Shown here: one piece after another, positions 15,771 to 64,000 of the stretch
Position numbering within the stretch: the first letter of the stretch is position 1
Layout of the letters: the number at the start of each line of letters is the position of its first letter
Assembly (NCBI GenBank): GCA_963921825.1
Contig: OY997594.1
Span: 58,327,675-58,391,674 of the forward strand
Length of the DNA stretch: 64,000 nt
Direction: 5' to 3'
Source: Erodium maritimum
Taxonomy: Eukaryota; Streptophyta; Magnoliopsida; Geraniales; Geraniaceae
The notes under the pieces: generated by a model
Databases searched by the model: none
What the model saw: only the letters and a program-made list of their open reading frames with translations
What the model was told of the DNA's origin: nothing
Translations under genes and position numbers: made by a program

Positions 15771-17468
15771 AGGGTAAATTACAAATACATACCCCATACT
15801 TTACACGATTAACCGATACCTACCCCAATCTTTTTTTGTAACCGATACCTACCGAAATATAACAGATAGCCCATTCCGTCTGATTTTCCATCCCTTTTCT
15901 GTTAGTTTTTTTCAAAAATACCCATAATACCCTTAACCCTAATCCAACTACATCTTTCAAATATTTACGAAAATACCATCACTTATTTACGAAATTACCA
16001 TTGTTTACAAAAATTCAGTTTTTTTTTTTAAATTCATTTTTTATTTTTCAAAAATTCTGATTTTAATTTAAAAACTACATAAAAATCAGTTTTTTTTTAT
16101 AAATTCAGTTTTTATTTATAAAAATTATTTAATATTTTTAAAAATTCATAAAAATCATTTTTTTTATATAAATTCAGTTTTTATTTAAGAAAAATATTTT
16201 TATTTTCAAAAATTCATATTTTAATTTAAAATATACACAAAATCAGTTTTATTTTTAAAAAATACATAAAATCAGTTTTTTTTAAATACATAAAATCAGT
16301 TTTGTTAATATAATTAATTTAATTATCTTTTATTTTTTATTTCAGTTTTTCATTTTTCTACCCAAAAATCATTTTTCCATTTTTTCCATCACAACCATGC
16401 TCTTCTCCAATTCCATCACAAACATGTTCTTCCCAATGTATTTCAGTTCATGTTCTTCCCATCCCAATCAATTTATTACTCTTCCATCCTCTCCAAACTA
16501 CCCCATACATCTCTCCAAAATCAACAACTCTAACTCATGGATCTATAACACTCAATTTATTTCTCTTCCCAATGTTTTTATCAGCCGCACACAAAAATCT
16601 ATCTGAAAAGCTTCAGCAACCGTAACTCATGGACCCTAATTCATATTGCTTCAGCAACCCTAATTCATATTTCTATTTCTCTTCCATCCTCTCCAAAATA
16701 CCCCATATATCTCACCAAAATCAACTATGGCCGGAGCTTCCTTTGTGCTCGACTCTGCAAATCCGAAGAGGAGGAGCTCCGCCGTCGCTGCCAGAGCTAC
16801 GCCGCTGCCTCTTTGCCTACTCCGCCACCACCCACGGCTCCACCAGAGACATCCCCAGGCAGCTCGAAGCAAACCCCAGAAACCACCGGATCTACACCGC
16901 CGTCGCTGCCAGAGCTCCGTCGGATTTATGTCGCCGCCGCTGCTAGAGCTCCGCCGGATCTACGCCGCTGCCAGAGCTCCGACCGTGAAGACGAAGAGAT
17001 GAAGATGAAGATGAAGCAAGGTTAAAGATGGTTAAAGATGAGAAGAACACAAGGGAGGGGATGAGAGGTTTGATATAATGGTGAAAGAGAGAACATATGG
17101 TGGTGGCTGTGAAAAAAATGACTTAGTATTAGGGTTTGAATACATATGGGGAGGAGGAGAGAGAAAAAAGGTTTTGGGTAGAAAAAGAAAAAATAAAAAA
17201 AAAACTGAATTTTCAAAAAAAAACTGAATTTGGTAATTTCGTAAATAAGTGATGGTATTTTCGTAAATATTTGAAAGATGTAGTTGGATTAGGGTTAAGG
17301 GTATTATGGGTATTTTTGAAAAACTAACAGAAAATGGATGGAAAATCAGACGGAATGGGCTATTTGTTATATTTCGGTAACAATTGAGTAGGTATCGGTT
17401 ACAAAAAAAGATTGGGGTAGGTATCGGTTAATCATGTAAAGTATGAGGTATGTATTTGTAATTTACCA
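15771..17468. mobile_element. Mutator-like foldback element A (non-autonomous)
   Basis: About 250-bp terminal inverted repeats: the left begins agggtaaattacaaataca and the right ends tgtatttgtaatttacca. The flanks give a nearly perfect 9-bp duplication (tttttaaat at 15762-15770, attttaaat at 17468-17476), typical of Mutator-like elements. Inside the arms lie arrays of CAGTTTT motifs (16015-16350), then a GC-rich core (16720-17000) with a tandem repeat. No transposase is present. The core is open in two or three frames for 70-105 codons, which may be a captured host fragment or only repeat expansion. Confidence 0.8.
16784..16985 (+). repeat. GC-rich minisatellite in the core of foldback A
   Basis: Units of about 33-34 bp built on gctgccagagctccg followed by ccggatcta recur near 16784, 16900, 16934 and 16967, with an unrelated insert after the first unit. 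Because the unit is close to a multiple of three, several frames stay open. Confidence 0.65.
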
Positions 17469-17476
17469 TTTTAAAT

Positions 17477-18834
17477 AATGCCAACTTTTATATATTAATG
17501 GAAAGATATACATAGATCTGATGAACACACGTGACAAATAAGAAAGTATCGACTCCAACATGAAAACAAAATGTATACCAACTATATAGGCTCTAATAGT
17601 ACAATGAAATGCAGCAAATGCACATTTATCCCGAGCCAAACTCAAAACATAACATACAAGAGATTGAGCTATGACCATTGTGGTGTCCTCTTGGGGATGG
17701 AACAACTTCTTGATCTATTTAATATCATGTCAATAGTACATACAATTATTATTTTTTGAATTGTCAACGGATATATTAATTAAAATAAATTTCTGAAGGT
17801 CTAGACCGAGAATGGATCAACCAAAAAGTATATGAAACAATTGCAACATAAATGAAATAGTTGAGAATTCCAAACAATGTTGGACATATTAAAAAATGCT
17901 CATGTACAGAAATGCTCCAAGGGGGATGTCGAGAGAGGGATACTACATAGCGGCTGGAGCAATCGATATAGTTATGCATGACGGTGAGTTAGGATAGAGC
18001 GGGCCCATTTCAAGAGAATTGACTCCACTAGCGGAATAAATACTCCCTCGAGGATCCAGCGTGCATCATCCTCCCTCGAATAATAACATAGGATTCGAAG
18101 AACGCGAGAATACTAGCTCTCGAGATAGTAGAAGAGTATAGTGTCGGTACTTGGTGGAACTTCTGCCACCTTACGACCAGTGAGGTGGTGATACATGCAA
18201 ACCCCTCATCGGTTCTTCTGGTGCTCATTGGGATAGGAGAGGAAATGCAGCACCCATCGTCATTTTGGCTTTCATTTCAATGGACCCGACATGTCCCTTT
18301 AGGTCAATAACCAGAATTCGCATCGAGACAAAGTCATCCGAGAACTAACGACAGACAGGTATACAACGTCGTCGATCGAGAATCAACTCCCTATAGTAGT
18401 TGTCCACCCTACAGCTATACGAACGATAGTTGAGAAATAATACACCGGTCGGTGGTCGTCACTGGTTCCACACTAATGGATCTGCTCCAGCCCGGTCGCG
18501 ATGGAAGTTGAAAGCTCCCCTCCACTACCATCCACGGAGTAACTCAGGTATCTATATTAGTCACAGTCCAAGCTCTCATGCCACCGTCTGGAACCGTCTA
18601 TGCCCATATAGTCATGCTTCGGTGCCCCAGCGTCCTCGTTCCTAGCCAAGCCTCGTCGGACCCAACTCGCACCAGCAACAACGACGCACAACAACACTAC
18701 CGAATCGGGTGCTGTTGCACCCTACCCTAGATTTTAGGGCTGAGCCGACCTAGTTAACGCCTTATCCGTCTACCTTTTTCCCTTTGTGTGTAGACTAGCG
18801 CATTCCACCGTTATTGGATGCAAAAAAAAAAAAT
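17477..18834 (+). mobile_element. Retroposon-like sequence with poly-A end
   Basis: The block ends in an A-run at 18822-18833. An 8-bp match (gacggtga at about 17980 and 18835) might be a target duplication, which would put the element at 17988-18834, but it is short. The part before 17988 is AT-rich with no gene. The 17988-18800 part is GC-richer with no recognised protein. Classification is uncertain. Confidence 0.3.
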
Positions 18835-18913
18835 CGACGGTGATAGTAACCCTAAAGGGAGGAGAGGGCATTCCACTTGGTATAAATTGTATCATGTACA
18901 TACAATTGATATG

Positions 18914-19087
18914 TCTATATGAGTTAGCTTGGTAGTGAATACTTCTTCACATCTCCCATGTCTTTAAGATCACAAATTCGAATCGTAATAGATACACTTA
19001 TTTGAAAATAAGTATGGATGATGAATTAGATTAGACTAAAGTAGATTTTTCTTGTATTTTTTTTATGATAAAAAGAAAAAGAATAAG
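18914..19087 (+). mobile_element. tRNA-derived SINE
   Basis: A 174-bp unit with an A-box-like block (ttagcttggtagtgaa, ~18923) and a B-box-like block (aaattcgaatcgt, ~18976), spaced as in a tRNA-type internal RNA polymerase III promoter. An A-rich tail follows (gataaaaagaaaaag). Both ends carry tgatatg (18907-18913 and 19088-19094), a plausible short target duplication. Confidence 0.55.
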
Positions 19088-19127
19088 TGATATGACATAA
19101 ATAACTTTAACCTGATGATAAATAATA

Positions 19128-20295
19128 GGGGAACTATGGTTCCTAACTTACTATTAGTTTTGTTTTTGCGATCCTAACTTGCGTTTACCTTTTGTTGCAT
19201 TTCCCAACTATGACCTTTACATTTTTTGCACAGACTATCGTTTTTCGTCAAAATTAACAGAGACGTTAGTTTTGGATGGTAAAAGTCCAAAATACCTTCA
19301 GCAAAAAATGTTATCCCATGCAAAAAAATAGAAAGGTCATAGCTGGAAAATGCAAGCTCACTTCAGGTTATTGAGTTTTGTTGAGGGCATTTATGTCTTT
19401 TCCCATCCAAAACTAACATCCTGTTAATTTTAACGATAAACGATAGTCCGTACAAAAGATATAAAGATCATAATTGAAAAATACAGCAAAAAATATAAGG
19501 GAAAATGACACATAACCCTGGCTAACTATCACCGTTTTCACATCACCCCCTAACTATTTTTTGTGACATTTAACTCTTTTAACTTCTTTTTTTTTTTCAC
19601 TTTCGTCTAACGGTGTTAAATTTTGGATGGAAACAACCATGTGCAAAGCACATGTTGTTTTATTTTTATTAAATGACATAATTACCCTTTCATAAACACT
19701 AACTTAAGCTAACTAAACTCAAACCCTTATCTCCCACCCTCTTCCTCTTTCTCATTTCATCTCAACCGCACAAAGCTTCCAACTCCAAACTCTCACCTCC
19801 AATTATCTCCTATGCTCTTCTCTCATCTCAAACACTTTTATTTTCATTAATGTGTTTTTATACTTATATATTAAGAAGGGTGGGAGCAAAAAGAAGTGTT
19901 TGAGATGAGATAAGAGTAGAGAAAATAATTGGAGGTGAGAGTTTGGAGTTGGAAGTTTTGTGCGGTTGAGAGGAAATGAGAAAGAGGAAGAGGGTGAGAG
20001 ATAATGGTGAGTTTAGTTAGGTTAAGTTAGTATGTATGAAAGGATAGTTATGACATTTAATAGAAATAAAGCATCACGTGTTTTGCACATGGTTGTTTCC
20101 ATCCAAAATTTAACACCATTAGACTAAAATGAAGAAAAATAGAAGTTTAAGAGTTAAATGTTACAAAAAATAGTTAGGGTGGTATGTGAAAAACGGTGAT
20201 AGTTAACCATAGTATGTGTCATTTTTCCAAGAGATAAACTCAAATTAGGATTGAGCAAACAAAACTCAAAATAAATAAGAACTCATAGTTTCCCC
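19128..20295. mobile_element. Foldback element B (outer of a nested pair)
   Basis: The left end ggggaactatggttcctaac is mirrored by the right end (gagttcttatttattttgag reversed, then catagtttcccc at 20295). Inner arm blocks also pair: actatcgtttttcgtcaaaa near 19243 with ttttaacgataaacgatagt near 19427. The right arm is interrupted by element C. The flanks taaataata and taagtaatt agree at 7 of 9 bases, consistent with an old 9-bp duplication. No coding capacity. Confidence 0.7.
19499..20228. mobile_element. Foldback element C, inserted in the right arm of B
   Basis: A 730-bp element that is nearly all inverted repeat. The left starts gggaaaatgacacataaccc and the right ends gtatgtgtcatttttcc. 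The arms pair through caaccatgtgcaaagcacat (~19636) and continue almost to a short centre near 19850-19870. The flanks aaaatataa and aagagataa agree at 7 of 9 positions. Removing it restores the right arm of B. The transcript would form a long hairpin. Confidence 0.75.
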
Positions 20296-20318
20296 TAAGT
20301 AATTCTATTGGAAATTTT

Positions 20319-21610
20319 GTGTTGTCCTTACGTGATGAGACTTCAGCGATGTTAGATTGTAATTTCCATCTGTTGCACTTGGCTTCTTCTGAGGCCGTGT
20401 TCTCTCGTGTGTTAGAGTTGAACGGCAAAAGTTACCAGATTAAGGTGGTTAAGTTAGAGTCCTGTGATGTTCATGCAAGGGAGCCGGAGAGAGTGTTGAA
20501 AAAAGCAGAGTATAGGGATGCTTTGTTCTCGCAAAATAGTTCGGAATTTCCACCTCCTGAAGCTGCTCTGAAAGGCAAAGGTGTTCTGCGTTTTTCAACT
20601 CCGGTGAGCAAGGTTTCTGAATCGCCAAGTCAGAGTCCAAGTCCATCTACTTTCTTGCGTGGGCCTCATTCTTCTCGGGCCGATGGTTCTGTAAGTCGTA
20701 ATCTACTTCAGGCTAGCAAACCTAATTATGTTTACCGATCATATGCTGCTCGTGGGATTTCTATTGGAAAGGAAAACGCAGATCGGGAGAAAAGGTGGAA
20801 AATCATCAAGGCTAGTCAGAAAGCTATTGCAGATCACCCTGACGCGGCAGATCAAATTGAAGCTCTTGATTTCGAACTGGGGGATTCTGTAGACCCGGAA
20901 TTTCAGGATGACTCTGATGATTTTGGTTCGAGTGAGGGTGTAGAAGAGGGGGATTCTCTCCTCTTTTCTTTACCTTTTTAACCTGTAAAAGAGACGGAGT
21001 TTGGTTGGGAAGGTATATAAGTTAATTACTCCGTCTTATGAGGTGGTTCGTGGCTGCAGATTTTCGGTTGCTTGCTTTGATGTGCTATTTTTGCAATTCA
21101 TGTTTTGAGGGCTTGGATCACCTGCTACTGCATTGTGCTTACTCTTGGGGTCTATGGGGACTAGTTTTCTCCTGGTGGTCAGTGTGTTGGGTGATTACGG
21201 TTTAGTAGTTTGTGAGAGCTGGGCCTTTGAGGCCGAGTTTTTTGGGTGGCACGATTTGGTTGTCAGTTTTAACCTGCAGACTTTAGTGGTTACAGAGAAA
21301 TCATAAATAATTCTCTGTTAGTGGTTGAGGTGTTTGAGAAGTTGAAGTTGCATGCTTTCAGTTTACTCCGGTTGGCAGGAGATCTTTTGCCTGCTATTTC
21401 TTTCGAGTGGTGGACCGTGGACCCCGTTCGTGTATCCGGGGTAGGCGCAGGAGTTTAGCTGCAGGGTGGTAATCGCTAGTGTTAGTTTAGCTTTCTTGGT
21501 TGGTTTGGTGTTTTCTGTTATTTGGTTGTAGCCTCTTTGAGGTTTTTCTTTGAGCGATTTTTCATCTTGGAATCCCGTAGTAATAAATTCACCGTCTATC
21601 GAAAAAAAAA
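20319..21610 (+). mobile_element. Internally deleted LINE derivative (ORF1-like frame plus zf-RVT end)
   Basis: A frame open to 20981 (first ATG at about 20349, just over 200 codons) has a Ser/Pro-rich middle and an acidic C-terminus rich in Asp/Glu. I do not recognise its family; a LINE ORF1 remnant is the best guess. About 110 bp later comes a short zinc-binding RT tail, GLDHLLLHC followed by a W-rich stretch (near 21115-21180), which normally sits at the far 3' end of LINE ORF2. The endonuclease and reverse transcriptase between the two are missing. The element ends in an A-run at 21601-21610. No target duplication was found. The juxtaposition suggests a non-autonomous internally deleted LINE. 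Confidence 0.55.
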
Positions 21611-22007
21611 ATACACATGGTACTATGCAATGCCTCCGTGATCATCCTAACTACCCAGACCCAATATCAATGGACCAAAAGCCACCGACACCAATAATAT
21701 TTTATCCACCTGTCGTCATGTTATTGGTTGAAAATCAATATTACCGATTTTCTGAAATTTCATTGGCTTTTATTTGTTCAACATTTGGGTTCCACAAATG
21801 TATTATGTAGATATGATATGGACAGTGAGTGTAGTTGGATGGAGGGGCTCATTTTGTATTGCGCATTATTGATTTCTTCTTCTTCACTCATATGGTCCCG
21901 TGTGTTCCGTACCTGCATTTTCTCCACACAAACATTTTTTTATATAAGATATTTCAAGTATGGTAGAATCTTATTTCGTACTGTAATTTATTTAGATGGA
22001 TATTAAG
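21611..22007. other. Intergenic; no supported gene
   Basis: AT-rich DNA with two short frames (86 and 92 codons) lacking recognised motifs. Confidence 0.4.
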
Positions 22008-22020
22008 TGTTTGAATTTTC

Positions 22021-22036
22021 TCGTTTAAAAAAAAAC
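22021..22036 (+). mobile_element. 16-bp remnant insertion with 13-bp target duplication
   Basis: The sequence tcgtttaaaaaaaaac sits between two perfect copies of tgtttgaattttc (22008-22020 and 22037-22049). The insert looks like the last bases of family R (cgtttc plus A-run), so it is read as an extremely 5'-truncated retroposon. Chance is unlikely for a 13-bp perfect duplication, but simple slippage cannot be fully excluded. Confidence 0.6.
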
Positions 22037-22054
22037 TGTTTGAATTTTCAAATT

Positions 22055-24229
22055 AACTTTTCGATAATATATTTTTTTATATTAAAAACAGAGCTCCGCT
22101 ACCTCTGACTAGAGGTGTTTCTTACCCTAACTAGGGTTTCGCCGCCGCCCCTTCTCCACGCCCAACGTACCCTCGCCGCCGCCTGTTGCTGCCCATCGCC
22201 CCCACGCTGACCGTTGTCCTTCCGATCGTTCTCGCCATCTACGAACTGCTCCATATCCCCACTACAATGCATCGACGTCGAGACAACGAGAGCAACTCTC
22301 TCCGGGAGCTGTCACTGCTGTTACCGGCGGGTCCATTTTGGGCCCACCTCCTTCTCTCGAGTTGGCCGGACCAATGGCCATGCACCGACGGTGCGACTGG
22401 CCCATGCAAGGGCGGGCACACAGGCCTCCGTGGCCGTATTGGCCTCACTGGGATATAGATCTCCGGTCGATGGAACTCAGGCCGGAAAGAACATGGGGCC
22501 GAGCCGAGATCCACTGGAGCGGTCCCCATCCGAGGATGCTGCCGAATAATCTACGGGAGCGACTCACCTCTGATCCAGGCATGGAGGCCCTGCCACCAGT
22601 CTTCCCAGGTCGGCCACCATTTCCATACATAAAGGCACGTAAACCCTAGGAGGCATGCAAACCCTAGGGTCGAGGGGGTCGGGGGCCACTGATGCCATCA
22701 TCCAGGCGACACGATCCGGAGGCCCAGAGAGCTAGGACGGTGACGCTGATCGCCCCGAGAGAGGACTCCCCCGCACCGAGGCCTCCATGTAGACCTAGAC
22801 CCCGGTGAATTAATATACTCAGAAGGAGATGCCGTTGGTCCGTCGAGGTATTTGGAGATACAGCCCGAGCATTGGTCCCCGCCCTCGGAGGACCAAGACA
22901 AGGAAGGCCGCGGAAGCGCATGCTGGAGAGGTGGATCCACCGGAGGTCCGGGAGACACCCGAACAGGCTTACGACCAGGATATGAGTCCGGTGGGGCTAT
23001 AGCCACTCGAAGGGGGAATGACCTCCCATTGTGGGGGTGGGGAAGGCCGACTGAGGCCTATACCCACAGACCCGGGACAGCTGCAGCCGGGAGGTCTCGG
23101 GAAATCCGCACTAAAGGCTCAATATCTGGTTTATTTACTTGGTTATTTCCTTGTTTTAGGTCGAATAATTTTTTAGCTAGATAGGGCTAGGTTTTGGGAT
23201 GTGTATTTTTTTGAAACGTTGGATCAAGAATTTCTTGAGTTCGGATCTGCGAGGCAAAGCAGATTATCTTTATGGATCCATGAGCGCCAGACGGACTACG
23301 GCCGATTGGGACACAAATATGGAATCCGGGAAAATTATGTCCCGCCCTGTAAGATTGATATGTTACAGTTAATATAATATCTCGTTCCCGTTTCAAAAAA
23401 AAACTTTTCGATAATATTAGCTAGGATGGTAATAATTAAAAAAAAAGCTCTTTTGGTCTGCGAGAAACCTCACCCCCAAAACCCTAGTCGCCATCGACGG
23501 CCTCCATGGCTTTGGCCATAGAGGTTGTCGATGAAGCTCTCTCTTCCTCTTGTTTTCTTTATTGATCCCCTTTCTCAGCAGTCGTCTTCGCCTGCATAAT
23601 AACAACAACTTTCCTCCATCCGAGCACAGCCGCCGCTATCCCCGTCGTGTCCCTCCACCGTTGCCGGATCTACGCTTCAATCGGGCGAGCCACAAGTTTT
23701 CAATCTCCTCATCGTCATCAATAGAGGTAACACAGAGTCGAGAAGACCATAATGAACCCTCAAGTTTATTCACGAACCGACCTCCACATTTTATCCACTT
23801 GGAGAAGGTTATCGAGCGATATAGTCTGTGGAATTGGGATCCGGGACCTACCCATCATGACTCGGAACCGACGTTGCTTGGCCGTCTCGGGAGGAGAAAG
23901 GAAGCATATCGTTTTTCATGTTTTAGGTTGGATTCAGTTTTAGTTTCAATTTATAATTGCAATGATTGCTTTAGTTGGATTTTATGTTGCTGTAGGATTT
24001 GGTTTTTAGGTCGTTTAAATTTCTCGTTTCGTACTTTTGAGATGTCGGTAAGGGGATGTCCTAAGTTAGTATCTGCGATCCAAAGCAATATTTTTCTACG
24101 GGTCCATGAGCCCCGAGTTGGCTACTGGCAACCAGGACATATATGGAACCCATGACTTTTACGCCATACCTTGTATGGTTTGTTTCTTGTATTAATGCAC
24201 TTCCCCGATTACACGTTTCGAAAAAAAAA
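22055..24229 (+). mobile_element. Family R retroposon copy B, carrying copy C inside
   Basis: Flanked by gaattttcaaatt at 22042-22054 and 24230-24242 (13 bp). Its 3' end is cgtttcg plus nine A. The last ~190 bp align with the other R copies (atctgcgatccaaagcaata, ggtccatgagc). The 5' part has a plant retroposon leader (aaaaccctagtcgcc near 23478). Without the inner element it is about 0.83 kb. A 201-codon frame (23550-24155) has no recognised domain. Confidence 0.7.
22071..23401 (+). mobile_element. Family R retroposon copy C, nested in copy B
   Basis: A 1.33 kb insertion flanked by a perfect 16-bp duplication aacttttcgataatat (22055-22070 and 23402-23417). It starts with a leader containing taactagggtttcgcc (near 22128) and ends ttcccgtttc plus A-run. 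Its tail closely matches the minus-strand copy at 4905-6304. Frames of about 100-110 codons overlap on both strands and are not called as genes. Confidence 0.82.
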
Positions 24230-29475: not shown

Positions 29476-29479
29476 TCAA

Positions 29480-31189: not shown

Positions 31190-32650
31190 TTCTTGATCAA
31201 TGAGGTTTTATAATTCCACTATTTCTATGGGAAGGAAATAGGGAACCTGCATAAAACAGACAAAGTAGACATGCTGCATATTGCAAACAAAATACAAACC
31301 AATGATCTCCCTTTTGTAGCTTAACCTTTGACTATAGGGTAGAAAACTAAATACTGCATAAAAAACTCATAAGGAACATACAAACAAACCAGAAATGCTT
31401 AAGAGTTCTTTTTAAAACTTCTGTTGCAACAAGACAGTTGAGCTCTTCTCCACTCAGTGAACGAAAAAAACACCTTTGGACCATCTCGAATTTGATTGGA
31501 CTTTGATGAAGATATTCTCCCAGATGATCTGTTCATTGTTGAAGACAAGCTTTTTCTTTGCCATGCAAGACTCCCACAAAACTAGACCTGCAATTCCACA
31601 CTAGAGCCTCTTTGACCAACTTGGAGCTAAAAATTTCCAGACAGCAAAGAGGTCTTTAAAATCTCCTGGAATCACCCAAGAGATGTTCCACCAACTCAGC
31701 ACCTTTCCCCCAAGAGCCCAAACTAATGGAAAATGGAGCAGAAGATGAATAACATCCTCAAAATCTTGATGACAAAAGGGACAGAGGCATTGCTGAATTG
31801 AAATCCTTACACCTCTCCCTTCTAAAAAACAATTTGTTGGAACTGCAAGATGACCACATAGCCAAGCAAAACCAGCCATCTTAGGAGAGAAACCAAATTC
31901 CTATAGCACTGACCCCCAAGCCTTTGGGGTTACTTGAGGGACAAGTCTAGCATAAACATCCCTTACTGAATACCCATTAGGGCAGTGTTTCCAAATTGCA
32001 AGATCCTCCATTTCCACCATTACATGAGAAGTTGCCAAAGTCTCATAAAGCTTCCTCTCCAAACCTTGCTCCCAATTAGATCTGTTCCTTTCAAAAAACA
32101 CTTTCCACTCCAGATCTACCCAATAATCCTCGACTCTTCCATTTTTGTTTGAGGAAAGGATGAATAACCTTTCAAATTGGAGTTTCAAACATGATGGTCC
32201 AATCCAGTGATCTTGTCATAATTTAATTCTAGAGCCATCTCCCAAAGATCATTGAATCCCTTCAATACCAAACAAACTGCTAAAATTCATCTCTTTTGAA
32301 AAAACTTTGAATATGATTTATCCAAGAGGATTTATCAATGCTATCAAAAGAGATTAGGTTCTAATCTTTCACCTCCAAACCATTCTTTGCACAAATTACC
32401 TGTTTTCAAAGAGAACCAACCTCAACACAGAATCTCCACCACCATTTTGATAATAAGCTATCATTCATTTTAGAGAGGCATCTAATTCCCAAACCTCCCT
32501 CATTCTTTGGGACACAAACCTTTTCCCAACAAACCTTATGAATCACTTTTACTAGAAGACTTCCCCACAAGAAAGCCCTCTGCCACTGTTCCAGCTTCTT
32601 AATTACTCCTACAGGAGCTTTCATCAGAGACATTTCTGAGGCTACCAACG
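31190..32650 (-). mobile_element. 3' part of an L1-type LINE
   Basis: On the minus strand the end of ORF2 can be read in pieces: an 80-codon frame (32406-32648) with EQWQRAFLWG and CVPKNEGGLGIRCLSKMNDS, a middle part (31901-32188) with LAIWKHCPNGYSVRDVYARL, and a zf-RVT end (31601-31879) with CPFCHQDFEDVIHLLLH. These are the conserved blocks downstream of LINE reverse transcriptase. The 3' end is an A-run at about 31190-31196 preceded by cctcattgatcaag. The 5' truncation is near 32650. Frame breaks separate the pieces. It lies about 0.8 kb beyond the villin stop codon, in the same orientation. Confidence 0.75.
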
Positions 32651-33466
32651 GTAGGTATTAAACTAAAACTAAAATCATAGTTATGGTAGTGAGGTGCAAC
32701 AAACTATTGCTAGGGTAGTGAGACAAAGTTTACCCTTTATTAATAAAGTTTTATATTCTTTTTTACCAAAAAATGAAGCTAACAAGTCCCTCGAAGAATT
32801 ACCTGAATGATTAATGTATATTATGTATTCGGTTATGGAATATACAGTTAAAATGGATGATAAATTAGAATACACAATATATAAGGATAGTTTTCACACT
32901 TGGGACAATATATAGAAGTAGTAATTTCGTTGTCGGAACAACTAGATAATCGTGATAGTTTAAAAACACGGATAATACGAAAGGTAGTTTTCCGCACAAG
33001 GACAGCGTATAAGCATAACTTTTTGCAGCTAACCCAACCTTAAATCTCCAAAGCAATAGAACTATGAGATCTACATCCATTGAAATGAAGAAAACCAACT
33101 CAATATTGACAACTTTGCAATTGCAAAACCTTGCAGCAAAATAAATAAATCCACATAACACCAACCAACAAATTGATCCTTACAGTGAAACTAAGTACAA
33201 CTGTAAAAGCCATATACAATACAACTCTTTTTCTTAGGATCTATCAAAAGTCAACACCACCAAAATAAAAGACTCTTACTGACCAAATGAAAGAATTTGA
33301 CCTGACTGCTGATAGAAAAAAAACCAGAATCAAGAGGAAAGAAAAATAAAATCACTCTCCAGGCAGAATCACATTCACAACCAATACCTGATACTATCCA
33401 CAACTACCCCTTCATCAATGGGTACAGAGCAAGACAAAACGCATAATAAATCACTTGTTGAATGAT
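32651..33466 (-). other. Villin 3'UTR and downstream DNA
   Basis: The DNA following the villin stop codon on the minus strand, AT-rich and without a gene. The first 250-300 bases (33466 down to about 33180) are presumably 3'UTR. I could not fix a single polyadenylation signal. Confidence 0.45.
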
Positions 33467-50895: not shown

Positions 50896-50899
50896 AATA

Positions 50900-52308: not shown

Positions 52309-52317
52309 TTTATAAAT

Positions 52318-53756
52318 GGGCAATTTTCATCTCAGTACCCTAACTATTGGGTTAGCGTCAATTCAGTACCCTAACTATTTTTAGCATCACCTCAGTACCC
52401 TAGAATGTCAATTTCCGTCACTTTAGTACCCACCGTCAACTTTCCATCCATTTTGGATGGAAAATGCATGAAAAGTCTAAAATACCCCTCACAAACAGTC
52501 AAATTTTCAAAATATGCCATTGGTTTCAAATTTTCTTTTTATTTATTTATTTATTTATTTTATAAAAAACATTTATTATTTTATAAAAAATATAATTTCT
52601 TTAAAAATATTAATTTTTTATTTTATAAAATCAGTTTATATTTCAAAAAATATATTTTTTATTTCAAAAAACATATTTTATTTCAAAAAAACATATTTTA
52701 TTTCAAAAATCAGTTTTATTTTAAAAAAACCAGTTTTATTTATAAAAATCATATTTTATTTTAAAAAAATCAGTTTTATTTATAAAAATAATATTTTATT
52801 TAAAAAAAACAGTTTTATTTAAAAAAATCAATTTTATTTAAAAAATTAGTTTTATTTATAAAAATTCAGTTTTATTTTTAAATTAGTTTTTATTTTTAAT
52901 TCAGTTTTTTATTAAAAACAGTTTTATTTATAAAAAAAATAATTTTATTTATATTATAAAAAAAATCTGGAATTATCGTCGAGCAGTTTCGTCCTCTCCG
53001 GCGTCCACTCCGGCCAATCCTTCCTCCGCTGTCGAGCTTCGTCCCCGGCCACCCCACCTCCGCCGCCTCCTCCTCCCTCTTCCACCTCCTCCCCCTCCCA
53101 CGCCCTGAACCAGATCGAATCGCGATTTGGTTCAGATCTCAGATCTGAACTGAACCAAATCGCGATTTGGTTCACAGGCGATGGAGGACGGAATCGAGGG
53201 AGGTCAGGCCGTTGAGGGCGGAGAGCATGGAGTTGACCTTGGAGGGGTCGATGACGGTGGTGGTGGCCATGGAGATCTGAACCAAAACCAGAGATCTGCG
53301 ATTTGGTTCAGATCTGGTTTTTGTTCAGATCTGAACCAAATCAAGTGAGGGCGTGGGAGGGGGAGGAGGTGGAAGAGGGAGGAGGAGGCGGCGGAGGTGG
53401 GGGTGGCCGGGGACGACGCGGCGGAGGAGGGTTGGCCGGAGACGACGCCGGAGAGGACGAAGCTGCTCGACGATAATTCCAGAATTTTTTTTAATATAAT
53501 AATAAATGTTTATTATAAAATAAATAAATAAATAAAAAGAAAATTTGAAACCAATGGCATATTTTGAAAATTTGACTGTTTGTGAGGGTTATTTTAGACT
53601 TTTCATGCATTTTCCATCCAAAATGGATGGAAAGTTGACGGCGGGTACTAAAGTGACGGAAATTGACATTCTAGGGTACTAAGGTGACGATAAAAATAAT
53701 TAGGGTACTGAATTGACGCTAACCCAATAATTAGGGTACTGAGATGAAAATTGCCC
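52318..53756. mobile_element. Mutator-like foldback element D, near-complete hairpin
   Basis: A 1.44 kb element with a perfect 9-bp target duplication tttataaat (52309-52317, 53757-53765). It starts gggcaattttcatctcagta and ends tactgagatgaaaattgccc. The inverted repeat covers the ends, the AT-rich zone and part of the GC-rich core (tcgtcgagcagtttcgtcct near 52978 pairs with aggacgaagctgctcgacga near 53455), leaving a centre of a few hundred bases or less. The left AT-rich zone has a dozen CAGTTTT units; the right zone is much shorter. The core holds repeated gatttggttcagatct words in both orientations. No transposase. Confidence 0.88.
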
Positions 53757-53765
53757 TTTATAAAT

Positions 53766-54240: not shown

Positions 54241-54253
54241 AATAAGAATAAAA

Positions 54254-57200
54254 GGTCTCGGCCCCAGGACATGCGGATGTGCGGTTTATGGGGATCCACA
54301 GAGAACCTCGTCGGGATCAGAGGCATCCTACATTGGAAATGATCCGGGACCTCCATGCCCCCACGAGACCCAATGGATTCTGATAGGGGACTTCAATGGC
54401 ATTCTTGAACCGAACGAGACTACGGGAGGTCGGTAGTATCCTTTGAGTCTTATGGATGACTTTTGCTCTATGGTGAATGACCTACACCTAGTGGATGTCC
54501 CAATGACTGGCCATCAGTATACATGGTACAGGGGCCGACGACATGATGCACGGATCCAGTCACGGGTTGATAGGGCCCTGGTCTCGGATGCACTATTCTC
54601 TTCTCTACTGGACCTGGACTTCTACAATACGGGTGTGACAACCTCTGATCACTGGCCGGTCCTTTTGTCCATGGCTCGCCATTTCTCTCACCGAGGCCTT
54701 CCGAAGTTCCGTTTCCAATCCCAATGGGTTCGGGTGCCGGACTACGATCGTCTTATTCATGCCTCATGGGATAAACACCCGGCGAAACCTAATGGGGAAG
54801 TCATGCAATCAGTGGGCAAGTCCCTACATAACTGGGGTCGACATTATTTTCGCCGTAATATTAATCATATTAAATGGTGCCAACGACGGATTGCGGTGCG
54901 GAGCTCAACGGTCGCACGGATAGAGCAGGGGTGAATCGTCGGGAGGCTATCCAAATCCAATATGAACGTGCACTGGGGGAACAAGAGGCTTTCTGGCGTC
55001 AACGTGCGAAGCAGCACTGGCTGGATGAGGGTGACCGCAACACTAAGTTCTTTCAAACGACTTGTTCGTACAAGCGTCGAATTAATGCGGTTTTGTCCCT
55101 TGAAAACGATGTTGGGGACTTGGTCACATGGGACACAGGGATGCAACATTTAATTGTGGTGTACTTCACCATGTTGTTTACTTCAAGTTTGCCTGACCTT
55201 CAGAACTTCCCATTGCTCTACCTCAGTGTATTACTCCAGTACGGAACCAGTCCTTACTATCTCCATGCTCAGTATCAAAGGTCAGGATGGTAGTGTTTTA
55301 GATGGGGCCAGACAAGTCCTCGGGTCCAGATGGCCTGAATCCTCGGTTTTATCAGCATTACTGGCCGATTGTGGCGGACGAGGTGGTGCGCTTTATAGGG
55401 GAGGTGTTGATGTCTCGTAAATTTGATCACACTATGAACGACACCTCCATTGTCCTAATTCCAAAGAAGCCTGATCCAGACAAGGTAACAGACTTTCGCC
55501 CAATTGCTTTATGTAATGTTATTTTCAAGATCCTCTATAAGTTTCTAGCCAATTGTTTGCGTCCCCTCCTCCATACTATTATCTCTGATACCTAGGGGCT
55601 TTTATACCGGGCAGGTGTATTCAGGATAATATCCTTATCGCCTTTGAAGTCATCCATTTACTTTGGTAGAAGCGACAAAGGGTGATAGGTTTTATGGCGC
55701 TCAAACTCGATATGAGTAAGGCATATGATCGGGTGGAACGAGACTACCTCCTTCAGATTATGGGTCGATTTGGATTCTCAGCGGACTGGATTGAATTGGT
55801 GGCCTGATGTATAATATATGTCTGCTATACAGTCTCGTCTGGAGGCCGGAAGACGCCTCAGCTTACACCGAATCGGGGGTTACGTCAGGGTGACCCGTTG
55901 TCTCCCTACCTCTTCTTGCTCTGTATGGAGGGTTTATCCTTCCTTATGCGTCAAGCCTAGAGTGAGGGGCGTCTGAGGGGAGTTTGTGTCGCGAAGGGGC
56001 CCCCAGAATCTCACATATGCTCTTCGTATATGATTGCTATATCTTCTACCGAGCCATGCCTGAAGATGTGCACACGGTTAAGGGTATCCTCGACTTGTTT
56101 GGTAAGATCTCGGGCCAAGTTCTGAACCTGGATAAGTCCTTAGTCTTGTTCATCACGAATACAATTGCACTCATGAAACAATAATGTTGTCAGATATTGG
56201 CTATTGAGGAGACCTCGACAACGTCTATGTACCTCGGGGTCCCAAATATGATCGGGCAGAATAATAATACAGTAATGGCATATCTGGGAGACCGTATCGT
56301 TAAGCGTATTAGATCCTGGGATGAGAGGCTCCTCTCTCCAGCAGGACGGGAAGTGATGAGCCGGTCAGTTCTTACCTCGTTCCCTGTTTATGTTATGTCG
56401 TTCTTTACGATACCTTCTAAGATTATATCTCAAATACATGTGGCCCTGGCCCGATTCTGATGGGGGAAAAGTCTGGTCGACCGATTATTTGGCAGGACTA
56501 GGGTAAGCTATGTATGCCGAAGGAAGCTGGAGGTATGACATTTCGTCATCTGAGTGATGTCAATAAGGCTCTTTTGGGAAATCAAGCATGAAGTCTGATC
56601 CATCGACCTCAATCTATGATGGCTCGGCACGTTACTTCCCAAAGGTTAGCTTTCTCGAGGCTGGAGTCGTGGCCAATCAGAGTTTTACATGGGACAGTAT
56701 TCTGTCCGCTCAAGAATTACTTCAGGTTGGCCTTTGGACAACGATAGGGGATGGCCGGGATACCTTCATCAAGGGTACCCCATGACTCTTGTGGCCTAAC
56801 CCGGAGATAACGTCGTCTAACCAGGCCCTGGTTGGGGCTCGAGTTGCGGTGCTCATTGTGCCAGGAAGGTTGTGTCAGGATGTCCCCCGGATGGGTCATG
56901 TATTCTCTGCCGAAGAACGGGATAATATACTTCAGGTTCCTCTTTCGACACTCAGGACTAAGGACACATGGTATTGGGCTGCTGAGCGGACTGGACATTA
57001 TATTACAAAACAGGTTATTCGATACTAACCATGGTAAGACAAGCGGCGAGGCTGCATACGACGTTAGTTACATGATATGCCCTGTGGTCAATCTCCCACG
57101 TCTCCTAATATTCTTGTGGAAAGGTCTAACTAACACTCTACAAGTGGCTACCAATCTCTATCGTAAGTTTGTTCCCATCCTAGCTACTTGTGATATTTGT

Positions 57201-58454
57201 GGACGAGCCCCTGAGATATATTTTTTTGTTCAACAGATTTTTATAAATAACCAGGTTTCCAAAATGGAAAACAAGGCCAAGGGGAGCACCCCTCCGATTA
57301 CATCCCAGAGACTACCACTCAAGCAGCTCAAAACCAGAACAAGGCTAAAAGCCAACAACAACAATGTCTTAAACCTAAATTTTACAGCCATTAAGCAATA
57401 CAATAGGGAAGATACAACAATCTTAAACCCTAAAATAAAAACAAAAGTGTTTCTAGAGTCAAATACTCAGATCTCACAAACATGAAGCTCAAACGAAGCA
57501 AAACTTATAAACAATACCAAAATCGGACATCCCGTACCAGCACAGAGTCACCGGCCTCCAACCGACCCTCACCCGAAAAGATGGATCACCCGATCCCTCA
57601 ACTTCACCAACCCAATCCCCCAGCCCCTGAGATAGTTGACCCTTTATTCCTCGAATGTGGTTTCGCAAAGACATGTTGGGCCCAGGCTGGGGACCTTACT
57701 CCCCAGGGTATAGGAGGAACTTTTGTGCAATGGTGGGAAGGGATAGAGGCTGGGAGGTCTCGGGATAAGGTGGCAGCGGTTCTATCTATCCTATGGGAAA
57801 TATGGAAGGCCAGGAATGAGCTTAAATGGAGGGGAACACCCCGGCGGCTCTACGGGTAATCTCGTTGGTGGTAGCTCATATGTCGGCCTGGCGGGAGGCA
57901 AAGGTTGCTTCCCCGAAGCCCAGAAGTGTACCATCTGTCTGGCCGGCTAAGTGGACACGCCCACCCACAAGTACTATCATTATTAATGTGGATGGGACAG
58001 TCTTCCAGGATACGCAGCATTCTGCATGGGGAATCATTACTCAAGACACCTAGGGGTCGGTTCTTCTGATCGCGAATGGTATCCTCCCGGGAGTATGCGC
58101 TCCGATCATGGTTGAAGCCTGCGCTTTAGCGACGACACTAAATAATGCACCGAGTTTTGCGTCTAATGTTATTATTCGCTCTGATGCTCAGGTCCTCCTC
58201 AACCTGATCTCTCATGCTGACCCTCCGGTCTCGCCCATTGGAACGCTTATTACGGACATATGTGAGCTTATTTCTAAACAAGAGGGGGAAACCCTTCAAT
58301 TTGTAAAAAGAACTACGAACAGGGCTTCCCACTGGCTAGTCAAAGAAGCTTGTTTTATGCATGTTCTTCAGTGGTCAGGCCATATGCTTGGTGCACTCCA
58401 ATTTACCGTCGATTCTGATTTATAATAAAGTTGCAACTTTAGCTAAAAAAACAT
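54254..58454 (+). mobile_element. L1-type LINE, copy 2, 5'-truncated (EN, RT, zf-RVT, RNase H)
   Basis: A 4.2 kb LINE bounded by a 13-bp target duplication aataagaataaaa (54241-54253, 58455-58467). It starts inside the endonuclease: WILIGDFNGILEPNETTGG near 54380, then LVDVPMTGHQYTWYRGRRHD and SDHWPVLL. RT follows: [20 protein letters not shown] (~55307), [15 protein letters not shown] (~55490), motif A LKLDMSKAYDRVE (~55702), [17 protein letters not shown] (~55882), and FVYD at the expected FADD site (~56020). A zf-RVT region (~57085-57210, 57640) and an RNase H tail come last: INVDG (D), VEACALA (E) and RSDAQVLL (D), so all three acidic residues remain. Stops and frame changes interrupt it, for example the stop after LHTIISDT near 55593. 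A 403-bp insertion splits the zf-RVT part. It is inactive. Confidence 0.92.
57219..57621 (-). mobile_element. 403-bp retroposon inserted in LINE copy 2
   Basis: Flanked by a perfect 13-bp duplication agcccctgagata (57206-57218 and 57622-57634). Removing it restores the LINE order CDICGRAPEI to LFLECGFAK. On the minus strand it ends ataaaaatctgttgaac plus A-run. Its 5' half is GC-rich (ggatcgggtgatccatc), its 3' half T-rich. It is SINE-sized, but I see no pol III boxes, so it may be the 3' end of a LINE. Confidence 0.8.
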
Positions 58455-58536
58455 AATAAGAATAAAATAATCAAAATGTATACCCATTAACTAATTATAT
58501 TTTGGTCATGTCCCGTGATCTAATACACAATGTTTT

Positions 58537-59338
58537 CAAAGTCTCTTCGTTAGGGTTGAGACCTATCAACCTTAGCCGCCGTAACCTCTATTATATAATT
58601 GTCATCGTGTATGTCTCCAACTATCACGAGAACAATCGCGAGTCTTCTCTTCTTTCTACTCTTGGTAGTGCTCTTCTCTGTGCATCCACAATTCAACGGT
58701 GTTGTATCGGAAGGATAACATATCGACGATAAACCGTGACTCTCTATTGCAGAGGCGTTTTCCTCTACGCATCCACACTCCGGCATTGCTGTATTGGAAG
58801 GATGGTGCATCGACGACGATCCACGACTCCCTATTGCGGTGATGCTCGCATTCTCCGTGTTAGCCTCATACGTCTCGAGCGGGGACACGACCGGCGGTAT
58901 AATCGGGAAAAATCATATGAATCACGTGAGGACTCCTATGCAGCCTCGCCAAGCCCAATGAGTAAGCAAGGATTCATGGATTATTACTGGGAGGGATCTC
59001 TGAATCATACATGTCCTCAACTATAGGTTGTCAAGTTCAAGTTTGGTAGCTCACATGACGAAAATAGTCTTTGAAAAGCAGGGATCAAGCAACGTTTAGG
59101 CCCTACTCTGAGCGGTTCTTGGCAGTTCAGATCTTTTGGATTTTATTTCCGTTCTATCTTTGGTTTCAATTCCTGTTTTAGTTATATTTCTTGTTTTAGT
59201 TCTGCTTGTTGTTGTTATAACTGTTTCTTGTTGGTCCGGTTCATATCTAAGATTTATTGGATCATTATCTATGTAAGGGCTATGGCCATTGTAATGCCTC
59301 TGTTTTTCTATTAATGAAACTTCTTATTCTAAAAAAAA
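58537..59338 (+). mobile_element. Non-autonomous retroposon with 12-bp target duplication
   Basis: An 802-bp insertion between acacaatgtttt at 58525-58536 and 59339-59350. It begins with a leader (cttcgttagggttgag) and ends attaatgaaacttcttattc plus A-run. Inside, a ~97-bp segment (from 58682 and again from 58779: gcatccaca, ggaaggat, cgacga, gactc-ctattgc) is tandemly duplicated. Overlapping frames of 76-112 codons have no recognised domain. Confidence 0.8.
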
Positions 59339-59350
59339 ACACAATGTTTT

Positions 59351-61830
59351 TTTTATCAGCAATGCAAATTTAGATTAAAACCTCTTTTGAGGTGAAAAGA
59401 TGAGTTACAATATGTTACACTAAGAACCTAGAAGCCCAAAAATAGACACAACTATTTGATTAGAGCAGGAACAATAAACTGAAAAATAAAAACTGATAGC
59501 ACCAGGTTTGAGGATACAAAATAAGCCAACAGAGTACAAGAAGGGTTAAAACATCCTAAAACATATTAATGTACACACAATAGGGGAAGGAAATGCAAAT
59601 GAGAAACTTGAGGATCACGCAACCCCTTGATCTTTTACTGAAACCTGAAGAAGCACGTTGTTGAAAGATCCACTTTGAAGCTAATTGATGGAGATGGAGT
59701 TGTTTCTTGTAAAAGTTTACTTGAATGTAAGATACAATCCCAGGTGAAGAGGTAAAACTGGTAATTGTAAGGCAAAAGGTCTCAGAGCATGAGTGTAAAC
59801 TGGCTTTGATAAGAGGGGGAGCTGAGGGGCAAAAGTCTGTGTAAAAAGAGGGGCACTGTAACTTGTGAATTGATCTGAGAGAGGGACAATGCATCTGAAT
59901 TGCTGATAGGATATTGATAATTGAATTGTATGGAAGTTCTTTGAAGAGAACCATCGCCAACATCAGCTGAAAGTTTCTCCAACAACAAAGCCAACTTCAG
60001 CAAGAGTGGACTAAGATGTGCACCTGCAAAGTAACAAGAGACACAACACAGGAGGCTACAGGACTAAACTCTCAGCCATAAATAGTCTAACCACACACAA
60101 GAAAGGATAGAGCATATATGAGAAAACCCACAAAAAAAAAACAAAGTCACCAAGGACTGAAGGAGAACCCAAAACAGCATCACCAAGCCTCACCCACTCA
60201 GCTAAGACCTACCCCAGAAACCAACCCAACCCAAACCCCCAAGCCAAGAGAAAAATTCATCACACAAGGCAAAGAGCAGGCTTCCATGTTATACAAGACC
60301 TATGATTTGTCTTCTAAAGCTTATAGGAGAGTTGGAAAGTGGAGCTCTTATGCCTTGAAATTTCCCAATTGAAGGATTGATTTACTATAGCCAAGAATAT
60401 TTCTTCTGTAGATAATGAGATAGCTTGGAAAAGAAGTAAATTCCTAGCTAACCAGATTTGCCAACAAACCAGAAGAACCAAGCTTGTTCAAGCCTTGTTC
60501 AGCTTCCTATGTGATACCAAAGATGGCAAAGAGCCTAATAGATCCTTGACTCATACAGGGATAATGAAATTAATCCCCCACCATGTTGATATAAGCCCCC
60601 CCAAACTTCTCATGCTCTCATACAATGCAATAAAATGTGGATACCATCTTCAAAGTCCCAAGAATAAATGGGGAAAATTATTTCCGGTAGAGTTAACTTG
60701 AAGTCTCTCCTATCCAAGTAGCATTTGGAAGGGATAATATCCAGACAATCCATCCAACAAAAGGCTGATACTTTAGGGGGTATCCCATGCAACCAAAGAG
60801 ATTTTGTCCAACTAGTATTTTGAGAGTTTTGGATGCCTTGGTGAGCAAGTAAAGAATATAACCTCTTAACTGAGAAGCCAATTTTATCCCACGCTCAATT
60901 CAAAGTGTCTTCCTCCTGAGTGAGCCTTATACCAGCCAACATTATAGTGAGTAGATCCCACTCTTGTTCCTCCCATCCTTTAGGACTCCTTCTCAACTTT
61001 AGTTCCCATATATGATCTTCCCAAGCTTTTGAAACTCTGGCCTTTTTAGCTTGAGGTAATAAAGAAATTCTAGGAAAGAGATTTTTAAAAGGTGTTTGCC
61101 CCCACCATATATCATCACAGAAGAAGGTGTTGTCACCCTTTCCAATTCTCCAAGATAGTCCTTTAATTCCAAATAAATCATTGAATTTGGTGTCTTTGAT
61201 AAGATCTAGAATATGTGCCATAAAACAACAGCTTCCCACCTCAGTAAAATTACTCAAATCCCATTCATTAGGATCCCAACCAAATTTTGAGCAGATGACT
61301 AATTTCCAACGGGAATTTCTTTCCAAGGAAAATCTCCACCACCACTTGGCTAAAAGGGCCAGATTCATTAGCTCTAAATTTTTAATTCTCAAACCTCCTT
61401 CTTCTTTTGATATACAGACATTGAACCAGTTGGTTTTGCATAAGACTTTTGGGGAAGAATTTCCATGCCACATAAACCATCTCTGTCAGCTCATTTCTTT
61501 AATCACCCCTTTAAGGGCCTTTATAATAGAGAAGAAATAGAGAGGCAATGCTCCCAATGTGGACTTTAGTAGAGTTATTCTCCTTCCCATAGAAAACATC
61601 TTGGCTTCCCATAAGCCAAGAGCATTTTTTAATTTGTTGATGATTGCAGCCCAAGTTACCTTTCTGCTCGGGTTGGATCCTAGGGGAAAACCCAGATAGG
61701 TCATTGGCAATGACCCTTTTGGACAATTGAGAGTACTAACAATCCCCAAGTCTTCCTCTTCTGACAGATTAAAGGTGATGACCTAAGATTGATCATAGTT
61801 CACCTTCAAACCAACAACAACTTTGAACAA
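59351..61830 (-). mobile_element. 5'-truncated L1-type LINE on the minus strand
   Basis: On the minus strand the order is: the end of the RT domain near 61750 (GLKVNYDQS, then PMTYLGFPLGSNPSRKVTWA), the connector KMFSMGRRITLLKSTLGALP, a long open stretch of 192 codons (60895-61473) with CISKEEGGLRIKNLELMNLA and GKGDNTFFCDDIWWGQTPFK, and zf-RVT (60610-60792: PPKVSAFCWMDCLDIIPSK and DGIHILLHC). A 3'UTR of over 1 kb runs to the A-run at about 59347-59354. The catalytic RT core is missing by 5' truncation. Frame breaks separate the pieces. The retroposon at 58537-59338 appears to have used its tail region as target. It is related to, but distinct from, the 31190-32650 copy. Confidence 0.8.
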
Positions 61831-62563
61831 TTTCATTTTGAAACGTTAAGTAATATATAGAGGCGGATCCAGAAATTTAGTTTAAGTTATGCCACTTATA
61901 ATGATTAAATGTAGAAAAAAATTAAAGCCGGTTTATGGAGTCGTAGAGTATGATTGGTCTTCCAAATAAAATAATTTTCTCATACAAGCTCCGATTTTAA
62001 CTCGTAAGATATTAAATCAAATAAAATTCAGATATCTATAATTTTCATATTCGACTTTCAGCAAGGAAAAACATTACATGAACTCATACATGTCATGAAA
62101 GTCAAACGTTCAAGCATACGCAGTCCAGTTCGCCATGGGCAGAGCGCTCTGGGCAAAACATACAACCAATCATACTCAAATATATGAGTTATGAACAAGC
62201 AGTCGAGGATACCCATTCGTGGGTCATATGCGTTTGTAGAACCTACAAACCGAGACTTTTTTTTCTTGTCTTTTTTGTACATAACTTTGTTTAAGTCCAA
62301 TATTCATATTTTACAACTTTAAATATTATAATAAATAATAACAAAGGTCAAGTTTAGAATAACATTTTTTTCAAAAATAAAGTATTAAAATACAATAAAA
62401 ACATTAAAAATACACTTACAAAAGACAGTGTAAAAATTAAGAAATAGACTTGCAAAAAAGACAAGGTTATCCTTCTACAATTGTAATAATATAAGGAAAA
62501 TCTACGATAAAAAGTATATGAATACTACATAATCAAATATACTTACATTTTAGATTATAATAT
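61831..62563. other. Intergenic; no supported gene
   Basis: AT-rich. It contains gaggcggatccagaa near 61860, a word often seen at ends of plant DNA transposons, but no matching second end. An 80-codon minus-strand frame (62058-62300) has no recognised motif. Confidence 0.4.
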
Positions 62564-64000
62564 GGGGAAAACTACAGATACCTACCCAAAACCATGACCA
62601 TTTAACCGATGTTTACTATGAAGTTTAAACGTAACAAACACATACCCTGAACTTTCGAAATGTAACTCAGACCCCCTTCCGTCAGTCAGCTCAGTAAGTT
62701 TACTATTCACTTTTCAAAAAATGCCCAAAATGCCCTTAACTAGTACTCATATTTACACCCCCTACCTTCTACCTCTAAATCCTAAATTTTTTAATTCTTT
62801 TTATTTACAAAAATAGTTTTATTTTACAAAAAATTAGTTTTTATTTTAGTAAAATAAAATTTTAAAAATAATTATTTTGAAAATTCAGTTTTACATAATA
62901 AAATTATTTTAAAAAACAGATTTTATTTTTAAAAACAGTTTTTATTTTAAAAAAAAAATCAGTTATATTTTCAAAAAATCAGTTATTATTTTTAAAAATC
63001 AGTTATTATTTGTAAAAATCAGTTTAATTTTAAAAATCATATTTTCTAACCCTAAACACCCATCTCTTTCAACTACACGCCTCCTTACTCTCCTTCTCCT
63101 CCATATTCTATCACCCAACTCCTTTTCCTCCATTTCTATCAAGCTTGATGTTTTTATCCATTTCTTCTACACTTTGAACCCTAAGTCACAACCATATGGG
63201 AAATTAATGGCCCGTTATTTCCTTCACGGAGGTCGTGCAACCCACGGAGATGGCGACAGCGGCGAGGTCAAGGACGAGCGACAACGGCGAGGTGAAGTCC
63301 ACTCCATCTCCCGCTTCGTCGGCGATGACGACGGGTTGGTCAAGCTCTCGGACCAATTGAAATGGAAGCAACTGAAATTGGGGATCTGATGCTCGAGACT
63401 AAAATCAAAGGGTAATATTGATTCAGATCTGGTTTTTTGAGGGGATTCTTCATCTGGGGTTTTAGGGATGGGGATTTGGGGAAGAACATGTATTTGTGGG
63501 ATTAGATTCATGCCCAGAGAACTTTCGGGTTATGATAATTTTTTGCAGAATCTGAAAACAAGCCCATATACAAGGGATTTTTTTTTGTAGAATTTGAAAT
63601 AATTTTTGGTGTGGGTTAATTTTTTTTGTTCCTTAAATGATATACTGGAAAATCAAGTTGGTCATGGAGGTGAAGGACGTGTTGTTCATGAGCAAAGGAG
63701 ATGGAGATGTCCAAAGCTCAATATTGACCAAAAATGATTTTGCTGAAAATATACAAATTATTGAAAAACTGAATTAATAAATAAAAAAACTGAAAAGGAA
63801 ATATAAAAAAGTTATTAAAAACAAAAATAATGAATTTCAGAAAATAAAAATTAATTTATTAACAATAAAACTGATTTTTTAATAATAAAATGATTTATTA
63901 AAATTGAAATTTGATTTTTTAAATAATAAAAACTAATTTATTAATAATAAACTGATTTTTTAAATTAAAACCGATTTTTTTAAAATAAAAACTGATTTTT
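62564..64000. mobile_element. Foldback element E, cut by the window end
   Basis: Begins ggggaaaactacagatacct and has the same layout as foldback elements A and D: an ACCY-rich end, ttccgtc at 62677-62683, aaaatgcccaaaatgccctt near 62718, a CAGTTTT-type array (62800-63040), a GC-richer core (63180-63520, with frames of 71 and 95 codons on opposite strands), then the reverse-oriented AT-rich array (aaaactgatttttt units, from 63730). The mirrored end must lie beyond 64000. No transposase is visible. Confidence 0.7.

Follow-up and report, generated by a model that had tools for sequence, protein, structure and literature searches.

The 64,000-nt stretch of the Erodium maritimum genome analysed here (hereafter the window; C7:58327675-58391674, contig OY997594.1 of a 763-Mb plant assembly) contains five inverted-repeat elements, E1 to E5, and the ends of these elements share a ladder of short units in a fixed register. 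The ladder takes up the outermost ~125 bp at either end and consists of about four degenerate ~30-bp units, at ~11, 42, 71 and 100, which share the core TACCCyNAACT and are closed by CCGTC. Three of the units are strong and one is weaker; counted from the GGG end, the first ACCC lies ~20 bases in, with the later cores 29–31 bp apart. What was observed is the periodicity with its register, the return of this register in further families, and the 9-bp duplications; the explanation that we regard as probable is that the ends are an inherited and selected array of putative transposase-binding sites in non-autonomous Mutator-like elements (MULEs), with one site per unit.

All five elements exist at the places given in the original prediction, an earlier description of this window, and have many copies in the genome:

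E1, 15772-17468, 1697 bp, flanked by TTTTAAATA at 15763-15771 and 17469-17477, an exact 9-bp duplication.
E2, 19128-20295, interrupted by E3 and ~430 bp long when this insert is discounted, with flanks TAAATAATA and TAAGTAATT (7/9 match, by eye).
E3, 19499-20228, a 730-bp foldback that has inserted into the right arm of E2, with flanks AAAATATAA and AAGAGATAA (7/9 match).
E4, 52318-53756, 1439 bp, with TTTATAAAT on both sides, an exact 9-bp duplication.
E5, starting at 62564/62565, ~1.7 kb, ending ~260 bases beyond the window, with a duplication exact over 8 bases, or over 9 with one mismatch.

The elements have long terminal inverted repeats (TIRs) with G-rich (GG/GGG) ends, as in the Mutator superfamily, and are high-copy non-autonomous members of that superfamily. 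Each family had at least 40 scored genome matches, and a first look at the genome gave 1021, 809, 726, 3571 and 1480 partly confirmed candidates for E1 to E5, respectively. E2 (430–441 bp in other genome copies) and E3 fold back over nearly their whole length, while E1 and E4 have ~1 kb between their arms, and E1, E4 and E5 (1.4–1.7 kb) have terminal repeats of ~230 bp or longer. The size range of miniature inverted-repeat transposable elements fits E2 (~430 bp) and nearly fits E3 (730 bp), and is exceeded by E1, E4 and E5. Target duplications were scored on the paired ends of 63 fetched copies from eight families (E4 20, E3 10, E2 9, E1 8, E5 5, F7 5, F9 4 and F13 2), permitting a one-base shift of the end and leaving out pairs with <14 flanking bases on either side. 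The flanks matched exactly at 9 bp in 40/63 elements, versus 2/63 at 10 bp, and 54/63 matched at 9 bp with at most one mismatch, whereas mispaired flanks from different elements of the same family gave a 9-bp match in 1.2% of 652 pairings. The duplications of E2 were the weakest (3/9 exact, 5/9 with at most two mismatches). The expectation that 9-bp duplications bound these elements was thus borne out, and differing duplication lengths between the families are excluded.

Family consensuses were built from 16, 20, 20, 41 and 10 arms (E1 to E5), and their autocorrelation across the first 125 bp, added up for all five families at lags 10–60 (51 tested), peaked at 31 (z 5.7), 60 (z 4.7) and 29 (z 3.4); over the inner 126–246 bp the largest z was 2.5, at lag 22. 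For single families at lags 28–32, E2 and E4 were equalled by 0/2000 shuffles, and E3 and E5 gave p 0.0065. The register was assessed by leaving out one family at a time, with a 20-bp profile of the unit positioned near 11, 42, 71 and 100, mononucleotide shuffles and 31 offsets. Although the starting register had been guessed by eye and the related E1 and E5 are not independent here, the left-out family beat the shuffles in 5/5 cases (E1 0/1000, E2 0.026, E3 0.043, E4 0.003 and E5 0/1000), with best offsets of 10, 11, 9, 10 and 10 for E1 to E5 after training at 10. The ladders in the window are:

E1 left ladder, 15782-15881, plus strand; this copy lacks 10 bp of unit 3 compared with the consensus, and TTTCCATCC follows at 15885.
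E2 left ladder, 19141-19248, plus strand; units near 19141, 19167, 19198 and 19229 (approximate, from the family consensus).
E3 left ladder, 19506-19616, plus strand; units near 19506, 19539, 19568 and 19597 (approximate, from the family consensus).
E4 left ladder, 52328-52437, plus strand; units near 52328, 52359, 52388 and 52419, closing CCGTC at 52433.
E4 right ladder, 53638-53746, minus strand; mirrors the left ladder, with a profile score of 65.0 at 53756.
E5 left ladder, 62575-62683, plus strand; units near 62575, 62606, 62635 and 62663, closing TTCCGTC at 62677.

The original prediction had proposed that the five elements share an order of sub-terminal sequence words, and the word positions it gave were correct overall, except that the TTTCGTC of E2 lies at 19243 and not 19254, and that the CCGTC of E4 in register with those of E1 and E5 is, by eye, the one at 52433 rather than the block at 52413. 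Defined as W1 (TTYCGTC at 80–136), W2 (GGATGGWAA or its reverse complement) and W3 (AAATRCC/AATTACC), the words occur in this order in 4/5 left arms, with E5 lacking W2. Not one of the 20,000 shuffles made for each arm brought all three together, and among 37,638 overlapping non-element segments of the window W1 occurred 190 times and never with W2 or W3, so that the block order survived comparison with shuffled sequence. As the blocks are short and were picked post hoc, they could be suspected of being chance words in A/T-rich sequence; the shuffle test leaves that bias and the genome scans remove it. These scans used free gaps, with the same pattern read backwards as control, and all matches listed lie on C1. 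The word CCCTNAACT occurring twice, 21–40 bp apart, gave 803 matches (control 128), with a period of 29–31 in 81 of the first 100 matches listed. GGGNAAA followed after free gaps by ACCCTNAA and TACCC gave 2275 matches (control 8), and among 100 matches listed the first ACCC was at base 20 in 96 (13–32 allowed) and the second core 30–31 bp further on in 94 (22–42 allowed). Finally, GGGNAAA, a fixed 12, ACCC, a free 70–100 and TTCCGTC gave 1119 matches (control 4), with TTCCGTC starting at 110–116 in 85/100 matches listed (94–124 allowed). With neither shuffles nor non-element segments giving the order, and backward patterns at 8 versus 2275 and 4 versus 1119, we consider the chance explanation negligible.

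The fixed-register ladder provides a sequence-light search profile, which turned up further families at once. The families behind the scan matches mostly have GGG ends and a ladder, with F12 as taken starting GAG, and when the profile of E1 to E5 was applied to seven further arms, four (F7, F9, F10 left and F12) beat 1000/1000 shuffles. F8 and F11 were also among the families listed, the shuffle comparison covering these seven arms. The idea of a sub-terminal code defining a family thus holds as a positional code that is common to the five families and also finds further ones, but the literal three-word code is rare genome-wide: its scan gave 6 matches (control 0), which by eye mostly resemble E4, and undercounts since its gap limit of 33 leaves out the main E4 spacing of 35. 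The code is the ~30-bp ladder in fixed register, which had previously been seen merely as 'ACCY or AACTAT steps'.

The ends had also been described as unrelated in overall sequence, and while identity is indeed low, some consensus ends align in register (alignments kept at E up to 0.01): E1 and E5 over 1–176 at 69% identity (E=6e-13), E5 and F13 over 1–137 at 75%, and E3 and F9 over 1–124 only, at 82%, with shorter in-register alignments for E1/E4 (E=0.001), E3/E4 (E=0.001), E4/F9, E5/F12 and F7/F13. Such alignments, 176 bp for E1/E5 and 137 bp for E5/F13, are what would be expected from pure common descent, in which one internally repetitive ancestral end gave rise to all families and the spacing persists without present selection. 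We judge this rather unlikely as the whole explanation, given that the core at 20 and the steps of 30–31 bp hold in 94–96 of 100 matches listed though the letters between them differ, and that F9 ends remain alike over the ladder only. In 4/4 F9 elements the two ends of one element agreed at 0.72–1.0 over the first 100 bp and 0.56–0.65 over 101–125, and beyond 125 bp mostly at 0.24–0.52 (one last bin 0.67). Since F9 ends are alike over the ladder and part near 100–125 bp, and E3 and F9 align over 1–124 only, the ladder appears to be the shared, needed part of the ends.

Units within one family are most alike (0.564), and between families units of the same rank (0.493) resemble each other more than units of different rank (0.465; ranks 1–3, permutation p 0.003). 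Together this points to an inherited array that may have been partly evened out within families. The within-family likeness would also be produced by local slippage, with ~30-bp repeats made and kept alike by replication slippage or gene conversion and having no role in movement. In keeping with this, two copies of the E4-like F8 (L125+L117 and L126+L118) by eye have ladders of seven and six units, and thus the unit number can change. We nevertheless consider slippage an improbable sole cause, as ladders of different families begin at the same fixed place and close with CCGTC near 113, and same-rank units resemble each other between families.

A shared structure had been put forward as another cause, and the order could serve a DNA or RNA fold, or the production of small RNAs from the foldback, rather than protein binding. 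In its favour, the elements are inverted repeats, several of them with short perfect palindromes, but 183 bases of an E4 arm, the one arm folded, did so no better than dinucleotide shuffles (z -0.38), and a two-arm fold needs complementarity and not a 30-bp register common to families, which makes this explanation very improbable.

In the binding-site array that we favour, each ~30-bp unit would bind one subunit of a MULE transposase, and since the units are about three helical turns apart, several subunits could sit side by side on the same face of the DNA and so bring a catalytic domain to the GGG end. A common ancestral end would have given rise to the array, with selection holding the spacing while the letters drift along with the DNA-binding domain of the transposase and are partly evened out within each family; the more internal palindromes and AAAATACCC words may be accessory. 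From this one would predict some four footprints at 30-bp intervals, the first near position 11. We can more tentatively extend the proposal, to a generalisation that we think possible but would not bet on, in which plant TIR-MULE transposases recognise ends mainly by geometry, reading some four sites at intervals of 30 bp (three helical turns), the first core lying 20 bases from the cut, and families could drift far yet still move, perhaps by one another's enzyme, while the ladder is kept. The proposal bears on the great length of MULE terminal repeats, and on how one enzyme class may serve many dissimilar non-autonomous families.

Several observations weigh against the binding-site reading. 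E1 by itself shows no significant lag at 28–32 (p 0.43), and lag 31 reaches z 2.0 in the inner 126–246 bp too. The whole-ladder profile is unspecific by score, with window shuffles reaching 39.3 and some real ends scoring 25–32, and F6 (left arm p 0.05, right arm 0.98) and the right arm of F10 (0.057) fit it poorly. A few families dominate the scan lists, where 100 matches listed form 12 clusters, the largest of 56, on one chromosome, and as the families are partly related, the fixed spacing may owe something to descent. Finally, a transposase gene with ladder ends was not found, with longer flanks read only at four of the MULE loci fetched (L009, L012 on its left side, L015 and L033) and at one further place (L106); as there is no such autonomous partner among the loci covered, binding is what we infer.

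The search for a partner scored 150 of 1627 candidate MULE gene places and fetched 30 of these with 1.5 kb per side. The autonomous Mutator-like element with the same blocks that the prediction had suggested looking for did not turn up among the MULE loci examined, and BLAST found E1 to E5 ends at 0/30 fetched loci. Eleven of the 30 (L025-L028, L030, L031, L033-L036 and L038) belong to one family, 97–98% alike; its member at L033 601-2673 (C2:10007670-10009742) is a high-copy MULE whose 691-residue open frame contains MULE, DBD_Tnp_Mut and SWIM domains. As no inverted repeats were present within a further 4 kb per side, it is probably of the non-TIR type. Against the PDB this probable non-TIR MULE gave one weak match, 'Mutator family transposase' 6xg8 (E 0.0012), and the PDB comparisons yielded no information about how ends are recognised. 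Among the matches listed on C1, no terminal-repeat place was seen by eye within 10 kb of a MULE or PF03108 place, which carries little weight. A scan did list two ladder ends with 5.0 kb between them at C1:27841120-27846152, a candidate for the autonomous partner. Several other candidates were rejected. L012 has a 112-bp GGGATAATTGC...GTAATTATCCC piece at its 3′ end and no left end in 4 kb added on the left. The end seen at L010/L021 belongs to a separate ~440-bp F6 element (C5:69851620-69852062), an inverted repeat with GGGATAATTGCA ends and flanks matching 7/9 by eye, located between two MULE transposase genes. L042, a 4.9-kb E4 copy, carries a copia-type reverse transcriptase, the frame of which had no PDB match, and a 7.2-kb F13 copy has, within the 2.5 kb read, an open frame that by eye resembles gypsy-type gag-pol; both copies thus appear to contain nested retrotransposon sequence. 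In L045 and L059, 13 of the 29 frames of at least 90 aa were searched and contained no transposase domain.

Further features of the window and its surroundings are as follows:

32610-32735, minus strand, an unpaired decayed ladder end (GGGTAAACTTTGTCTCACTACCC...) absent from the original prediction, with a score of 35.1, below the shuffle maximum of 39.3 and not significant alone.
52441-52463, the palindrome TTTCCATCCATTTTGGATGGAAA, just after the E4 left ladder.
15992-16350, 52528-52953, 62800-63050 and 63765-64000, A/T-rich arrays of ~20-bp units and a GC-rich segment.

Ends like that at 32610-32735 form a cluster of 12 among 100 scan matches listed. By eye, another palindrome, CATGTGC...GCACATG, lies just inside the ladder in E3 (window ~19640-19655), in F7 and at the right ends of F9 (inspected in L107, L108, L111-L116 and L121-L123). 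The A/T-rich arrays, of AAAATCAGTTTTATTT type, form a second layer in E1, E4 and E5 beside the GC-rich segment, and the 5.7 kb of elements hold 19 occurrences of TCAGTTTT or its complement, versus 10 in the remaining 58 kb of the window. The GC-rich inner segments of E1, E4 and E5 (0.5–0.66) are suggestive of captured host-gene fragments, as in Pack-MULEs. A further E4 copy lies outside the window, ~230 bases after the end of E5 (L039 2166-3602 = C7:58392165-58393601), and a further inverted-repeat element at 8414-9614 has arms at 8416-8741 and 9259-9614, an inner minisatellite of TTTATCAACACT type and ends starting GAGG(A/T)GAAATC. Other open frames in the window comprise one of 505 residues at 6628-8145 matching Pfam DUF7780 (E 1.8e-133), and one of 254 residues at 1979-2743 that matches the reverse transcriptase domain RVT_1 (E 1.6e-11).

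Internally repetitive terminal repeats are a trait of Foldback-type MULEs and are present here, as seen in the periodicity and the leave-one-out register. The Drosophila Foldback (FB) element has ~31-bp tandem repeats in its terminal repeats and 9-bp duplications, and is an animal element with long, variable arrays. Among the open-access papers listed in literature searches, no title or abstract opening described a ~30-bp four-unit register common to plant MULE families (subscription reports on FARE, SoFT and Jittery being outside this scope), and a search by sequence words listed no paper that, by its title, deals with transposons.

The comparisons below draw on passages of the papers cited. 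Maize Mutator/MuDR resembles the ladder elements in its 9-bp duplications, long terminal repeats and MURA binding motif of ~32 bp, near the unit length, inside the terminal repeats, but is set apart by its description as having one conserved motif where we find a four-unit ladder (PMC3310237). Plant MULEs with tandem terminal repeats likewise have repetition inside their ends, although whole repeats and not short units are duplicated (PMC3310237). Closer in build are the Foldback-type MULEs Muta1 and Muta5 of Aedes aegypti, with tandem units of 12 and 15 bp (PMC5225508), and Tm1 of root-knot nematodes, with units mostly of 14 bp (PMC3169594); they share tandem-unit terminal repeats, 8–9-bp duplications and many non-autonomous copies, but are animal elements with up to nine units of 12, 15 or ~14 bp, compared with about four of ~30 bp here (PMC5225508, PMC3169594). 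MuTAnT, FARE and other plant foldback MULEs share the 9-bp duplications and have GGGG-type ends that are described as 'built up from modules', whereas their target is (TA)n and the passages of PMC4486113 describe no ~30-bp register. Galileo of Drosophila has several transposase sites, established by footprint and band shift, within internally repetitive long ends, where ours are predicted; it belongs to the P-element superfamily, with its nearest site ~70 bp from the end and ends of >1 kb (PMC3688188). According to the same source, a binding-site role for the tandem repeats of Foldback and Phantom elements had yet to be tested (PMC3688188). Tandem units in animal MULE and Foldback ends, modular plant ends, the ~32-bp MURA motif and multiple Galileo sites were thus already known, and what is new, as measured against these passages, is the ~30-bp four-unit register across plant MULE families.

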